Below, one piece after another: positions 17,880 to 37,884 of a DNA stretch of 64,000 nt. The stretch lies in contig LDXM01000013.1 of NCBI GenBank assembly GCA_001443375.1, positions 1 to 64,000 of the forward strand, in the 5' to 3' direction. The position numbers were made by a program, and so were the translations under genes. The notes under the pieces are model-generated. The model saw only the letters and a list, made by a program, of their open reading frames with translations. It was not told the origin of the DNA and made no database searches. Source of the stretch: Chloroflexi bacterium CSP1-4 (lineage in GTDB: Bacteria; Chloroflexota; Limnocylindria; Limnocylindrales; CSP1-4). Positions within the stretch are counted from its first letter, which is position 1; every line of letters starts with the position of its first letter.

Positions 17880-17918
17880 GCCAAAACGAAGCGACCGCCG
17901 CAAACGCGACGGCCGCTT
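17880..17918 (-). terminator. Intrinsic terminator of the microprotein transcript
   Basis: Read on the minus strand, AAGCGGCCGTCGC (17918-17906) and GCGGCGGTCGCTT (17901-17889) form a 13-bp stem, continuous when two G-U wobbles are allowed, around a GTTT loop. CGTTTTGG follows. On the plus strand the two wobbles become A-C mismatches and there is no T-run, so it acts for minus-strand transcription. It closes the riboswitch/microprotein unit before the hom promoter. Confidence 0.75.
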
Positions 17919-17951
17919 GGGTGCTGCCCGGGCCGTGACGGCCCGCTCCGC

Positions 17952-18053
17952 CTAGTTCCAGCGCTTGCCGGCCTCGAGGACGAGGGCCGAGCTGGCGATG
18001 GCAGACATGACGAGGAGGAAGCGGAACACCAGGTATCTGGAGTGCTGCTTCAT
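17952..18053 (-). CDS. 33-residue membrane microprotein B, second of a tandem pair
   Basis: I do not recognise a family. The frame starts at ATG 18053 and encodes 33 residues: a basic N-terminus (MKQHSRY), one hydrophobic span (about 8-27, with FRFLLVMSAIASSALVL) and a short polar end EAGKRWN. It resembles the preceding microprotein: both share the pattern SA(V/I)AS(M/S)AL, two variable residues, then (T/E)AG(T/K)RW and one last residue. It begins 2 nt after the stop of microprotein A, implying coupled translation, and the terminator follows 33 nt later. Expected to insert in the membrane; function unknown. Confidence 0.6.
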   Translation of the reverse strand: MKQHSRYLVFRFLLVMSAIASSALVLEAGKRWN

Positions 18054-18055
18054 CG

Positions 18056-18145
18056 TCAGTACCACCGTGTCCCAGCCGTGACGGTCAGCGCCATCGACGC
18101 CACCGCCGACAGGAACAACATGAAGCGCGCCAGGTTCGCCTTCAT
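18056..18145 (-). CDS. 29-residue membrane microprotein A under a c-di-GMP riboswitch
   Basis: This short frame begins at ATG 18145, 11 nt after AGGGAGG on the same strand, and encodes 29 residues. The N-terminus is basic (MKANLARF), the middle is one hydrophobic span (about 8-24, FMLFLSAVASMALTV), and the end is TAGTRWY. It is related to microprotein B. The class I c-di-GMP aptamer ends about 35 nt upstream. A run of seven C residues directly abuts the AGGGAGG ribosome site and could pair with it, so translation control by the riboswitch is plausible. Small size, good ribosome site, a paralogue next door and a dedicated riboswitch and terminator together support a real gene. Confidence 0.65.
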   Translation of the reverse strand: MKANLARFMLFLSAVASMALTVTAGTRWY

Positions 18146-18180
18146 CTGATTTCGAGCCTCCCTAGGGGGGGTCCCTGCGA

Positions 18181-18270
18181 TGCCCTCCCCGGCAACCGGG
18201 CTACCTCCGGCGGAACGGAGGCCCCTGGCTTTGCGTCCCCGCCTCGCGACGGGTTTGCCCTGGACGGTCT
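18181..18270 (-). promoter_or_regulatory. Class I cyclic-di-GMP riboswitch (GEMM-I)
   Basis: On the minus strand the conserved blocks appear in the right order and spacing: CCAGGGCAAACCC (18263-18251 region), the P2 stem CCCGTC-GCGA-GGCGGG with a GNRA tetraloop, GGGGACGCAAAGCC (18240-18227), the P3 stem CCTCCG...CGGAGG, then GGTAGCCCGGTTGCCG. These match the Vc2-type c-di-GMP-I aptamer closely. The 5' block has G at every candidate position of the discriminating residue 20, favouring c-di-GMP over cGAMP. A GGTGAAGTTCACC hairpin and a TAGAGT hexamer (18310-18305) lie upstream. The downstream genes are the two microproteins; the upstream operon makes and degrades c-di-GMP. Confidence 0.9.
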
Positions 18271-18353
18271 GGCGATCGGGTGGTGAACTTCACCGCCGAG
18301 GCCGACTCTATGAACGGCCCGGCACGCCGGCCATGGGTCGTGAGTACCGTGTG

Positions 18354-18428
18354 TCAAGGCATTCGGGGGAGTTTCCGCAACGCACCATCGGCGCGGACGA
18401 GGGCTTCGACGGCGAAGGGCTCGCCGGC
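18354..18428 (-). pseudogene. EAL-domain remnant following the GGDEF protein's stop codon
   Basis: Reading on in the same frame past the TAG that ends the GGDEF gene gives AGEPFAVEALVRADGALRKL and then, after five codons, a TGA. EAL phosphodiesterase domains begin with a YQPIVDL block followed about ten residues later by the EAL signature (VEALVRW). Here RYRPVVDL is directly followed by the stop, and VEALVR appears right on schedule after it. The remainder of the domain is missing. This is the eroded start of a former GGDEF-EAL tail, on which a TTGACA-like hexamer (18357-18352) is now superimposed. Confidence 0.75.
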
Positions 18429-20297
18429 CTACAGGTCCACGACCGGCCGATACCGGAGGATGGGCTCGCCGTTCGCGGGCGCACGCGGCGGATCGGCAGG
18501 CATGACGTGCCGTTCCACGGCGGCTGCCTGCATCGCCGGCTCGAAGACCGCGAACTGGGCCTTGCCGCGGGCCTTCGCCGTGTACATCGCCACGTCGGCA
18601 TTGCGGAGCAACTCGTCAGGCCGCTCGGACCGGTCGTTGGTCGACGCTATCCCGATGCTCGCGCCCATGGTCACATCCCGACCCTCGACACTGAAGGGAG
18701 CCTGGAGCGTGTCCACGAGGCGCCGGGCGATGAGCAGGGCACGTCCAAGGTCGGGCGCGTCGTCAAGGAGGACGGCAAACTCGTCACCTCCCAGCCGCGC
18801 CGGCAGGTCTCCGGTTCTCAGACACTTGCGGATCCGTTCGGCGACCGCGACCAGGACGTCGTCACCTGCAGCGTGGCCAAGCGTGTCGTTGACCAGCTTG
18901 AAGTCATCGAGGTCGACGAAGAGGACGGCCGGGACGCGGTCGCCTTCCTTGGCCACGTCGAGCCGCCGCTCAAGATCCTCGACCAACATCCTTCGGTTGG
19001 CCAGGTTCGTGAGCGGGTCGTGGTAGGCCTGGTAGCGCAGTTGGTCCCGCAGCTCCGAGACCCGGGCGAGCGAGGCTTCCAGTCGCCCGTTCTCGAGAGC
19101 GACGGCGGCCTGGCGGGAGACGGCCTCGAGCAGGTCGAGGTCGTCGGTGTCGAAGGTGCTGACGGCTCCACGGCGGTTGGCCACGAGGATCGCCCCGCTG
19201 ACGTGCGAATCTCCATGGAGCGGGGCTGCGATCAGGTCCACCAGCCCGAATGCCTCGGCGGAGCTCTCCTGCCCCTGACCCCGCGAGCGCGGGAGAAGGA
19301 GCGATCGACCATCGGAGGCGAGGCGAGCACGCAGCTCCGCGCGATGGTCCTCTGCGATCGGGTGCATCGGCTCGACACTCTCGCCCGGGCCGACGGTCAT
19401 GGCCAGCGCTTCGGCCGACTCGTTCCGCGGCAGGATCACGATCTCGGCAACGTCCGCCCGGAACATCCGGCGCAGATGCTCGAGGAGCGCCAGCATCACC
19501 GCCTCGAGGTCGGTCGAGCCCTCGAGGATCCGGCTCGCCTCGTAGAGCCACTCGAGCCTCTCGTGCTTCTGCCGCTCCCGGATGTATGCGCGGTAGGCGA
19601 GGAGCAGGGTGGCGACCGGGACAGCCAGAAGCCAGATGGCTCGTGGGTCGCTCCAGATGATCGTCACGCCCACGAGCGCGAGGCTCGTGTTCGTGAGCGG
19701 CACGATCGTTCCAAGCCCGACGATCTGCTTCAGCTGCGCGGGCTGCGGGCGGCCTTCCACGAGCGAGACGACCGTGGCGACGGCCACGACGCCGACGATG
19801 CTGGCCAGCATCGTCGCCGCGAAGGCCGCAACCCAATGGCTCGGCTCCAGGCTCGCGCCGCCGCCACTGAGACCATTGAACACCGCGACCGCGAGGCTCG
19901 CCTGCAAGGCGCAGAGGGCCAGATTGAAGGCCAACTTCATGGGCGCCTGTCGGCGGTACAGACCGAGCGCGACGGCAGCTCCCACGAGCTGCGCCACGAC
20001 GATGCCGGCCGGTGCGACGAAGAAGAGTCCCAGGACCACCGGGATCTCGTTCAGCGAGAACGACTCGGCCTCGCCGCGGAAGTGGACGTGGATGACGAAG
20101 ACCTCAGCCAGGAAGACGAGCCCGGCCAGCAACCACCATGGCATCGCCACGGGAGAGCTACTCGGCGCTACCGGACTGACCCAGGCCACGAATGCCCAGG
20201 CGGCGATCAACGCAAGGACGGCGTTGAACGTCCAGATCCGGGATTCGGGGCCGAAGGGGGGCCAGTCACGTGGGCGTGGCCGATTGATGAGGCGCAT
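18429..20297 (-). CDS. Membrane diguanylate cyclase (TM-GAF-GGDEF, truncated EAL)
   Basis: GGDEF proteins make c-di-GMP from two GTP. This 622-residue protein has about seven membrane segments (25-235), a coiled linker (about 236-255), a GAF-like sensor region (about 258-405) and a GGDEF domain (about 420-590). The domain has an intact GGDEF active site (503-507), DLDDFK metal residues and an inhibitory RxxD site RTGD (494-497), so it should be active and product-inhibited. The last residues, RYRPVVDL, are the first strand of an EAL domain cut off by a TAG. It follows the DUF5317 gene by 12 nt and precedes the c-di-GMP riboswitch. Confidence 0.9.
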   Translation of the reverse strand: MRLINRPRPRDWPPFGPESRIWTFNAVLALIAAWAFVAWVSPVAPSSSPVAMPWWLLAGLVFLAEVFVIHVHFRGEAESFSLNEIPVVLGLFFVAPAGIVVAQLVGAAVALGLYRRQAPMKLAFNLALCALQASLAVAVFNGLSGGGASLEPSHWVAAFAATMLASIVGVVAVATVVSLVEGRPQPAQLKQIVGLGTIVPLTNTSLALVGVTIIWSDPRAIWLLAVPVATLLLAYRAYIRERQKHERLEWLYEASRILEGSTDLEAVMLALLEHLRRMFRADVAEIVILPRNESAEALAMTVGPGESVEPMHPIAEDHRAELRARLASDGRSLLLPRSRGQGQESSAEAFGLVDLIAAPLHGDSHVSGAILVANRRGAVSTFDTDDLDLLEAVSRQAAVALENGRLEASLARVSELRDQLRYQAYHDPLTNLANRRMLVEDLERRLDVAKEGDRVPAVLFVDLDDFKLVNDTLGHAAGDDVLVAVAERIRKCLRTGDLPARLGGDEFAVLLDDAPDLGRALLIARRLVDTLQAPFSVEGRDVTMGASIGIASTNDRSERPDELLRNADVAMYTAKARGKAQFAVFEPAMQAAAVERHVMPADPPRAPANGEPILRYRPVVDL

Positions 20298-20309
20298 GGC
20301 AGGGCTCAG

Positions 20310-20891
20310 TCAGCCGCCGGTTTGCGGCGGCTCGCCAGCAGCGGGGACGACCATGCCGGGCAGGCGGTCGAAGGGCCGGCGCATGACGGCCAGGATGAAG
20401 ATGAACACCCCGGCACCGATGAGAACGTCGCCGACGCTGAAGACGTTGGCCAGGGGCAGTCCGCGCGGCAGGGCGAAGACGTCCGTGAGTGGCGCCAGCA
20501 CCACGTTGGCGCTGGTCATGCTGTTCGAATAGCCGGCACCGAGGTGCTTCCCGAGCGCAGCGAGGGCATCCGGCGTGGTGGGCATGAAGCCTCCGTTGGC
20601 GACGATCGCCAGGAGGTTGGACGCAGCGCCGATGGCTACCAGCGGGAACGCGGGTTGCGGGATGTTGGCCAGCACGAAGAGCAACGTGGCGATGGTGGAC
20701 GCGACGTAGACGAGTGGCGCCACGTCGCCAAGCAGTTCGCCGGCCGGGCTCGAGAAGATGAGGAGTTGGGCCCCGAGGCTGAGGAGCGCCACGGCTGGCC
20801 AGCGGAAGCGGATGTGCCCGAGCGGCACGACCGAACCGCCGACCAGGAGCCCGACGATGAGAGCGACCACGAGCGGGTAGAGGATGAACAT
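20310..20891 (-). CDS. DUF5317-like membrane protein
   Basis: A 193-residue protein with about five hydrophobic segments (residues 3-22, 33-50, 60-84, 87-104 and 150-170), opening with FILYPLVVALIVGLLVGGS and containing GHIRFRWPAVALLSLGAQLL, as in the DUF5317 group. The ATG at 20891 has a GAGG ribosome site at 5 nt. It lies between an HD-GYP phosphodiesterase (52-nt gap) and a GGDEF cyclase (12-nt gap), so it is probably part of the c-di-GMP operon. A sensory or scaffold role is guesswork; the family function is unknown to me. Confidence 0.7.
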   Translation of the reverse strand: MFILYPLVVALIVGLLVGGSVVPLGHIRFRWPAVALLSLGAQLLIFSSPAGELLGDVAPLVYVASTIATLLFVLANIPQPAFPLVAIGAASNLLAIVANGGFMPTTPDALAALGKHLGAGYSNSMTSANVVLAPLTDVFALPRGLPLANVFSVGDVLIGAGVFIFILAVMRRPFDRLPGMVVPAAGEPPQTGG

Positions 20892-20943
20892 GGCTACCTC
20901 GCGCTTGGAGACGGGCGCGCCGTGGCCAAGAACGGCGGCGGAT

Positions 20944-22476
20944 TCATGCGGCCGGCCCGATCGCCTCGGCGGACGGGTCGACGCAGTGGTCGATGGCGGC
21001 CACGCCGAAGGCTTGCTTCCCGAAGATCGGCGCCGGTTCAGGCGAAGGCTGGTGGACCTGGACCGCACCGCGGTCGAGAAGACGCAGGAACGCTCCGACG
21101 ACGAGCGGGTCCCACTGACTGCCCGCACCCCGACGCAGGTGGTCAAGTGCCACGGCAACGGGCATCGCGGCCCGATACGGGCGATCGGCAGTCATCGCAT
21201 CAAAGGCATCGGCGACGGCCACGATGCGACTACCGAGCGGGATCGCCTCTCCCGCAAGGCCCTGCGGGTAGCCGTGGCCGTCCCAGCGCTCGTGGTGATG
21301 GAGGACGATGCCGGCACCGTCTCGGAAGAGCTCGAAGTGCACCAGGATCTTGGCGCCGATCTCGGTGTGCAGCCACATCGCGGCCTTCTCCTCGTCGTCG
21401 AGCGGGCCGGCCTTGAGGAGCACTCGGTCGGGTACGCCGATCTTGCCCAGGTCGTGGACACTCGCGGCCTGCTCGACAAGAGCGACCGCATCCTCGTCAA
21501 GACCCAGTTCGCGAGCGAGATCGGCGGCGTAGACGGCGACGCGTTCTGAATGGTGGAACGTCGACCGGTCCCGATGGTCCACGATCTGGGCCAGCGATCG
21601 GACAGCCGCTTGCGTCTGCGTCTCCAAAAGCCGAATGTGCTGGAGCGCCCGGCCGATCACCGCGCTGGGCGCCGCAAGGAGGGCGGTCCAGATGGGCTCG
21701 ACCATCCAGATCAGCGCGAAGAGCGCGCCAAGCGTTTCGGCGCCGATCTCCATCAGCAGCGTTCGCGTCCAGTTGGTGCGCAGGATGTACACGAGCGACT
21801 GCTCGGAGGCGATGGCGATGATCGCGCTGGTCAGCAGCCAATTGACGACGTAGTACGTGGCGCCGGCGGCGATCAGGATCCCGAGCCATGGGATGTGCTG
21901 ATCACCGTACTCGATGGTTCGCCGGGCGGCGTCCCATGGGCTGCCGATGAGCCCGATCGCGAAGGAAGTGACCGAGGCCGTCAGGACGAACGCCGAGACG
22001 TTGAAGACGACCTTGAGCAGAGGCCGACGCCCCACGAGTTCCTCGAAGAGAACGGCCAGGCCGATGGCCGCGGCGGCCCACGGCGCGGGGACGAGCAGCA
22101 GGATCGCGATGTGTGCGATGGTGGCGACCGAGACCTCGCCACCGCGCGACAGCGGCACGGCGACGAACTCGAGCGCTGCGGCAAGGATCGTCAGGAGGAT
22201 CGCAACGGAGATCCACGTCGAGGCCGCCTCTTGCCAGGTGGTCGGCAGGAACAGCGAGCAGGCCGCGAGCACCGCAACCACGACCACGAGGCGCCGGATG
22301 CTCGCCCGCAGCCAGCGTCCGGGCGAGACCGAGGAGAGGATCCCCGGGCGCGGCGGAGCGTCGTGTAGCCGACCCGCGATCTCCAACGTGTGCGTTCCCT
22401 CAGCCTTCGGTGAAGCGCGCGCACGCTCGATGCACGCTCCCGCTGATGATGCGTGGCTCCCTGGCACCGGGCACAT
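20944..22476 (-). CDS. Membrane HD-GYP c-di-GMP phosphodiesterase
   Basis: HD-GYP enzymes hydrolyse c-di-GMP to pGpG or GMP using an HD metal centre. The 510-residue protein has about seven to eight membrane segments (60-275) and a C-terminal HD-GYP domain (about 295-440) with HSERV, HDLGKIG (341-347) and HHHERWDGHGYP (393-404, containing the GYP triplet). All signature residues are present, so activity is expected. The start is uncertain: ATG 22476 gives a roughly 55-residue pre-membrane tail without a visible ribosome site. It is first in the operon with the DUF5317 and GGDEF genes, back to back with trpS. Confidence 0.88.
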   Translation of the reverse strand: MCPVPGSHASSAGACIERARASPKAEGTHTLEIAGRLHDAPPRPGILSSVSPGRWLRASIRRLVVVVAVLAACSLFLPTTWQEAASTWISVAILLTILAAALEFVAVPLSRGGEVSVATIAHIAILLLVPAPWAAAAIGLAVLFEELVGRRPLLKVVFNVSAFVLTASVTSFAIGLIGSPWDAARRTIEYGDQHIPWLGILIAAGATYYVVNWLLTSAIIAIASEQSLVYILRTNWTRTLLMEIGAETLGALFALIWMVEPIWTALLAAPSAVIGRALQHIRLLETQTQAAVRSLAQIVDHRDRSTFHHSERVAVYAADLARELGLDEDAVALVEQAASVHDLGKIGVPDRVLLKAGPLDDEEKAAMWLHTEIGAKILVHFELFRDGAGIVLHHHERWDGHGYPQGLAGEAIPLGSRIVAVADAFDAMTADRPYRAAMPVAVALDHLRRGAGSQWDPLVVGAFLRLLDRGAVQVHQPSPEPAPIFGKQAFGVAAIDHCVDPSAEAIGPAA

Positions 22477-37723: not shown

Positions 37724-37754
37724 GGTGGTGCCTGTCCTTTCTCGCGAAGGCTCG

Positions 37755-37884
37755 AGCACGACCGCGGGACCGGCGACCGGACTTCCAGCGCCACCGACGT
37801 CACGTCGGGGGCTGGTCACCGTAGCGGGACTGTGCCGGATTCTCACCGGCTTCGCGGACCCCGCGGTCCTGATCTTTGGTTGTC
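37755..37884 (-). promoter_or_regulatory. Cobalamin (AdoCbl) riboswitch
   Basis: The minus strand shows the conserved core GAAGCCGGTGAGAATCCGGC (37854-37835), CAGTCCCGCTACGGTGA and the B12-box-like GCTGGAAGTCCGGTC further down. GACCGCGG at the 5' side and CCGCGGTC at the 3' side can close P1. A CTCGAGCC...CGAG hairpin and the btuF ribosome site follow, fitting B12-repressed translation of the importer. Confidence 0.88.

Follow-up and report, generated by a model that had tools for sequence, protein, structure and literature searches.

Organisation of the locus

The 64,000 nt window analysed here (contig LDXM01000013.1, positions 1 to 64,000) comes from Chloroflexi bacterium CSP1-4, and contains between positions 17,880 and 22,476 a block of genes and regulatory elements connected with cyclic di-guanosine monophosphate (c-di-GMP), all on the minus strand. 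A gene for an HD-GYP phosphodiesterase is followed by those for a DUF5317 membrane protein and a GGDEF diguanylate cyclase, with gaps of 52 nt and 12 nt, and then by a c-di-GMP-I-GGC riboswitch aptamer and two micro open reading frames (microORFs), A and B. The initial annotation had described the three larger genes as running in one direction, with these gaps, into a riboswitch unit on the same strand, and the coordinates and the Pfam and Rfam matches agree with it; its suggestion that the riboswitch reads c-di-GMP is supported by the identity of the aptamer. Beyond that description, the regulated products appear to be two conserved microproteins, and a second riboswitch class appears to control a sister unit. 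The features of the block are as follows:

20944..22476, minus strand: HD-GYP phosphodiesterase (PF13487, E 4.2e-39)
20310..20891, minus strand: DUF5317 membrane protein, standalone form, 193 aa (PF17248, E 2.3e-25, 89.8 bits against a cut-off of 25)
18429..20297, minus strand: membrane-GAF-GGDEF diguanylate cyclase (PF00990, E 5.6e-47)
18354..18428, minus strand: EAL remnant past the stop codon TAG, AGEPFAVEALVRADGALRKLPRMP* (by-eye alignment with intact GGDEF-EAL neighbours)
18331..18348, minus strand: promoter-like conserved element GGTACTCACGACCCATGG (a looser match to the family element, read by eye)
18305..18310, minus strand: -10-like TAGAGT, 38 nt from the start of the promoter-like element (spacing as in relatives)
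18187..18268, minus strand: c-di-GMP-I-GGC riboswitch aptamer (RF03167, 66.8 bits against a gathering cut-off of 59)
18056..18145, minus strand: microprotein A, 29 aa, MKANLARFMLFLSAVASMALTVTAGTRWY (family conservation; in-frame ratio of nonsynonymous to synonymous polymorphism, pN/pS, 0.55)
17952..18053, minus strand: microprotein B, 33 aa, MKQHSRYLVFRFLLVMSAIASSALVLEAGKRWN (family conservation; in-frame pN/pS 0.50)
17889..17918, minus strand: terminator-like hairpin AAGCGGCCGTCGCGTTTGCGGCGGTCGCTT, then CGTTTT, between microprotein B and homoserine dehydrogenase

Two conserved microproteins

All the results reported here are inferences from sequence, made on metagenome-assembled genomes (MAGs), with a family sample of 107 genomes of Chloroflexota, Limnocylindrales. 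Profiles of A and B retrieve clear copies throughout the family, and the low pN/pS of both in frame compares with values of 1.07-1.78 in the other frames; hence, on the pattern of polymorphism, the two microORFs are coding genes under purifying selection. Since the two profiles also match each other, A and B are likely to be paralogues. Both begin with a short, basic N-terminal part, followed by a stretch of 14-17 hydrophobic residues, then small residues with an Ala and finally a conserved GxRW, so that each ends in AGxRW. In one genome (G033), three riboswitch-microORF units lie in tandem between DUF5317 and ilvB. Pfam and NCBIfam models gave no significant match for A, B, the type C protein described below or the distant types tested, the best being to Pik1 (E 0.47), and a literature search found no microproteins under c-di-GMP riboswitches. 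Several of the microB copies that stand apart from both riboswitch and DUF5317 (L217, L234 and L241-L245) adjoin a small secreted protein that is, by eye, cupredoxin-like.

Linkage of DUF5317, riboswitch and microproteins in the family

The class-I-GGC riboswitch was found in 57 of the 107 family genomes and DUF5317 in 87; stricter filters were applied when searching for riboswitches across many genomes, hence the riboswitch counts are lower bounds. A standalone DUF5317 gene and a class-I riboswitch lie within 4 kb of one another in 24 pairs (23 on the same strand), against 0.23 expected, although common descent means that such pairs are not all independent events. The source genome has 11 GGDEF domains, three HD-GYP genes, two class-I riboswitches and two copies of DUF5317. 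Given this excess of pairs, and the small numbers of HD-GYP genes, class-I riboswitches and DUF5317 copies in the source genome, the clustering in the block exceeds chance.

Twenty-seven class-I riboswitches are accompanied by microORF A, B or both, and the genes around them were tallied by hand. DUF5317 is upstream on the same strand in 22 of these units, GGDEF (usually as GGDEF-EAL) is upstream in 14 and HD-GYP in two. The pairing of HD-GYP with GGDEF is also restricted to two of the 27, the enzyme elsewhere being a single GGDEF-EAL protein. In genus g7, the corresponding chromosomal spot, flanked by trpS and homoserine dehydrogenase, is occupied by DUF5317, the riboswitch and microB only, with neither enzyme (some g7 contigs end nearby), and microB follows DUF5317 without a recognised riboswitch at six loci (L178, L182, L183, L186, L191 and L208). 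No known Rfam riboswitch was detected at E<=1 ahead of those microORFs that have DUF5317 but lack a class-I match. As both the g7 spot and the loci without a recognised riboswitch retain DUF5317 next to a microprotein, the core of the arrangement, judged by gene order, is these two components, which are often joined by the riboswitch and the enzymes.

A sister unit headed by a class-II riboswitch

DUF5317 also occurs in a second form, fused to what appears by eye to be an MFS transporter. This forms part of a sister unit in the same bacterial family, in which a c-di-GMP-II riboswitch (RF01786), microprotein C, HD-GYP and DUF5317-MFS succeed one another on one strand. The class-II aptamer has a fold unrelated to that of class I and, unlike the latter, is absent from the window itself; the source genome has one, heading a type C ORF and an HD-GYP gene. 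At least 41 pairs of a c-di-GMP-II riboswitch and DUF5317-MFS were found, 1.85-2.67 kb apart and all on the same strand among the matches listed, against 0.20 expected. Microprotein C, which resembles A and B, ends in AGGASLKGF and has a pN/pS of 0.59. At loci L387-L404, a promoter-like GTATTGACC...CCTATAGTCC lies ahead of the class-II riboswitches, with a perfect hairpin, CCTAGTACnnnnGTACTAGG, immediately before the aptamer.

Occurrence outside the Chloroflexota

Protein searches with DUF5317 matched records titled Actinomycetota, Acidimicrobiia, Armatimonadota, Bacillota and Acidobacteriota, amongst others, and the genome of Thermotoga maritima has a match to PF17248. At 13 of 18 non-family loci, the gene immediately 5' of DUF5317, and on its strand, encodes an HD-GYP, GGDEF-HD-GYP or GGDEF-EAL protein, and at two more (L378 and L379) the c-di-GMP enzyme gene is divergent from DUF5317. 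A record titled Deltaproteobacteria (L375/L405) has HD-GYP, DUF5317, a class II riboswitch and the microprotein MRWFSISLAVTALLSLILVSGAGWRWT in succession; in a sample of 30 loci fetched as relatives of this record, HD-GYP is 5' of DUF5317 in 27. One locus of that sample (L446) has HD-GYP and DUF5317 followed by a class-I-GGC aptamer (57.1 bits, just below the cut-off of 59), a terminator-like stem and a microprotein, whilst at L445 (1980-2654) five identical tandem microORFs, MRRWFSVLVMASFILSSIARCRW, lie 3' of DUF5317 at a spacing of 129 nt. In a record titled Acidimicrobiia, a class-II-GCG match below the threshold is followed by a microprotein and a GGDEF-EAL gene. Actinobacterial microORFs of the type GAGx[RK]W (in tandem at L376, 4780-5041; also at L382 and L384) are found ahead of GGDEF-HD-GYP or GGDEF-EAL genes; no Rfam riboswitch was detected at E<=1 before the microORFs of L376, L378, L382 or L384, and the leaders at L376, L382 and L384 could hold an undescribed aptamer. 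At L442 (2092-2176, minus strand), a c-di-GMP-I-GGC aptamer lies just beyond a DUF5317 gene, on the opposite strand to it.

These comparisons alter the emphasis of the initial annotation. Its expectation of synteny was right in that the neighbourhood is kept in relatives, but not as regards the pair of HD-GYP and GGDEF genes, present in so few units; nor is its view of the two enzymes as the heart of the block supported, both being missing from the g7 spot and replaced by one GGDEF-EAL protein in most relatives. The local c-di-GMP level that it has these enzymes set is a conjecture. The role of partner that it gave to DUF5317 is strengthened, by the excess of pairs with riboswitches and by the occurrence of its gene immediately next to that of a c-di-GMP enzyme in a number of further phyla.

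The riboswitch and its probable transcription unit

The covariance match to RF03167, the GGC subfamily of the c-di-GMP-I riboswitch (clan CL00126), spans the whole model (positions 1-80 of 80), and the window aptamer retains the core GGGCAAACC...GGGACGCAAAGCC. It differs from the subfamily as described in heading two membrane microORFs beside DUF5317; a literature search found no such gene context for a class-I aptamer. The ligand-contact position that we take to be equivalent to G20 of Vc2 is a G rather than an A, both in the window (GGGCAAA) and in all 16 of the microA units displayed; an A at this position is associated with cyclic GMP-AMP (cGAMP).

Under a strict pattern, 14 of 24 units carry a promoter-like element at -75 to -80 relative to the aptamer (shuffle mean 0.27), and in all eight strict matches to a TANNNT box, this lies exactly 38 nt from that element. 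The conserved element came from the comparison of relatives; a sigma-70 consensus scan of the window block gave no match. At the other end, a strong hairpin is located 3' of the last microORF in 22 of the 24 units. Hence the riboswitch and microORFs are probably transcribed from their own promoter as a self-contained cassette, and, given the conserved promoter-like block and terminator-like hairpin, read-through from the GGDEF gene would not be needed.

The second class-I riboswitch of the source genome (G000:C12:26342-26427, minus strand; L002 / L065) lies between a GGDEF-EAL gene and one for a secreted S8 protease, and the trio of GGDEF-EAL, class-I riboswitch and S8 protease with SWSG-type repeats is found again in several relatives. 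Elsewhere in the window there is an adenosylcobalamin (AdoCbl, cobalamin) riboswitch, at 37726-37881 on the minus strand (RF01482, 64.2 bits).

The enzymes of the block

In translation, the HD-GYP protein has an intact HHxxxxDGxGYP active-site motif, HHHERWDGHGYP, and its N-terminal membrane domain has a weak MASE9-like match (PF20972, 20.7 bits, below the cut-off). The GGDEF protein reads as having an intact GGDEF motif with an I-site-like RxxD (RTGD) five residues ahead, RTGDLPARLGGDEF. Its reading frame enters an EAL domain and is closed within the first residues of this by the stop TAG at 18429-18431. EAL-like residues continue past this codon in the alignment with intact GGDEF-EAL neighbours (L045, L052, L107, L127, L118 and L047), and a PF00563 match to the EAL N-terminus (E 8e-4) spans it. 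No complete EAL domain was found in the GGDEF protein of the window, the N-terminus alone being left. Because the frame stops within the start of an EAL domain that continues beyond the stop, the cyclase is, from its alignment with these neighbours, a truncated former GGDEF-EAL protein.

The DUF5317 protein

The protein encoded in the window is a member of DUF5317 (PF17248), a family without a described function, of which our literature search found no mention. Eight residues are invariant across 79 DUF5317 sequences: N92, N99, P104, D137, S152, G154, D155 and G161. According to the positive-inside rule, the DUF5317 loop that carries these residues and the AGxRW tail of the microproteins should both face outside the cytoplasm. 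An AlphaFold2 (AF2) model of the window protein has a predicted local distance difference test score (pLDDT) of 93.2; searches with this model gave no PDB match with Foldseek, VIA Z scores of at most 3.9 and no viral match, which do not prove that the fold is new. The DUF5317 profile had a single, chance-like match amongst PDB sequences, to carbamate kinase (E 0.059). Two invariant Asp residues 18 positions apart, the second opening the last helix, suggested kinship with the signal peptidase LspA. This kinship was not supported: hhalign gave it a probability of 6.6%, in a non-equivalent region, and the lack of a Foldseek match, where an LspA control recovered 6ryp and 5dir, also leans against it.

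Interpretation

What can be read from the genomes themselves is which parts the block has and in what order, that the ORFs are coding, that the linkage is conserved, and that two unrelated c-di-GMP riboswitch classes are used repeatedly. We think it reasonably probable that the block is a membrane c-di-GMP feedback module, in which c-di-GMP gates microproteins that work with DUF5317. Membrane-bound enzymes, here the cyclase and HD-GYP and in relatives mostly one GGDEF-EAL protein, would alter the c-di-GMP pool; the aptamer, with its own promoter, would sense c-di-GMP and govern production of the single-span membrane microproteins A and B; and these would act jointly with DUF5317 at the membrane, either as a regulatory subunit or as a peptide precursor. 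The membrane topology, the physical contact between microproteins and DUF5317, and feedback of the output, whether on the enzymes or on the envelope, are the predicted parts of this scheme.

Several observations weigh against it. Four units of riboswitch and B in genus g15 lack a neighbouring DUF5317 gene, in one riboswitch-microORF unit DUF5317 is on the opposite strand, and for at least seven copies of microB there is no riboswitch or DUF5317 inside 1.5 kb; in view of the orphan copies and the g15 units, the linkage of DUF5317, riboswitch and microprotein in the sampled genomes is strong, not absolute. GGDEF is near only about half of the riboswitch-microORF units, and therefore feedback on neighbouring enzymes would not be general. 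Shine-Dalgarno accessibility, tested crudely, showed no shared switching pattern and did not reveal the direction of the switch, and the family genomes are nearly all MAGs.

It is conceivable that c-di-GMP genes simply gather, with the riboswitch beside GGDEF by chance and the whole forming no functional unit, as the c-di-GMP-I riboswitches of the family have several targets, such as the S8 proteases with SWSG repeats, and are often beside GGDEF-EAL. However, pairs of DUF5317 and riboswitch are about 100-fold (class I) and about 200-fold (class II) above the number expected, order, strand and distance are conserved, and the arrangement is found again outside the phylum; the independent class-II case in particular strongly disfavours such clustering, which we regard as very improbable. 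Least probable of all, in our estimation, is that the microORFs are leader peptides regulating the next gene (homoserine dehydrogenase here, ilvB elsewhere, HD-GYP in the class-II units) and that the proteins are idle. The ORFs do close with a conserved Trp codon, and amino-acid biosynthesis genes (homoserine dehydrogenase, ilvB) are often downstream, but in 22 of the 24 units the strong hairpin lies between the last microORF and that gene, the downstream genes vary among genera whilst the amino-acid sequence stays, and in L405, L446 and L445 the ORF comes after DUF5317 as a separate unit.

A peptide signal is a more serious alternative, if still a rather unlikely one. The microproteins would then be precursors cut after the invariant Ala to free a C-terminal GxRW or GxKW, with DUF5317 exporting, processing or sensing the product and the membrane domains of the HD-GYP and GGDEF proteins acting as receptors, and a secreted peptide would be tied to c-di-GMP. 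This would fit the signal-peptide-like layout before GxRW in A, B and other lineages, the repetition of precursors (the A and B pairs, the three tandem units of G033, the five identical copies of L445) and the large membrane input domains of the neighbouring enzymes. Yet the C-terminus is not strictly fixed, with extensions in L039, L046b and L053, a tetrapeptide product would be extremely short, and neither the LspA profile nor the Foldseek comparisons revealed an export or protease function for DUF5317. Precursors of short hydrophobic peptide pheromones, such as those of the SHP/Rgg systems and the enterococcal sex pheromones, are likewise tiny, signal-peptide-like, unannotated owing to their size and sometimes present in multiple copies; however, no Rgg/PrgX-type receptor or Eep protease was seen here, the neighbours being c-di-GMP enzymes and DUF5317. 

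For the feedback module that we prefer, the closer parallels would be small regulatory membrane proteins such as CydX, KdpF, AcrZ and MgrB, which also have around 30 residues and one span and are encoded beside, or act on, a larger membrane protein; the microproteins described here differ in having a c-di-GMP riboswitch, tandem paralogues, an AGxRW tail and a partner that is predicted. A broader proposal, which we advance only tentatively and consider doubtful, is that of a widespread, undescribed membrane signalling module. In it, c-di-GMP acting through two unrelated classes of riboswitch would control the AGxRW microproteins, which DUF5317 would process, export or bind and which would in turn influence the membrane input domains of HD-GYP, GGDEF and EAL proteins, giving a loop from peptide to c-di-GMP.

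Whilst c-di-GMP riboswitches are known, the role of the target in the network is unclear for many of them. In the present case, two aptamer classes unrelated to each other share one kind of target, a membrane microprotein encoded next to DUF5317 and a c-di-GMP enzyme, both in Limnocylindria and beyond the phylum. This convergence is a first strong clue to what DUF5317 may do, brings to light protein families that gene callers miss because of their shortness, and provides a testable connection of c-di-GMP with small membrane proteins or peptides.

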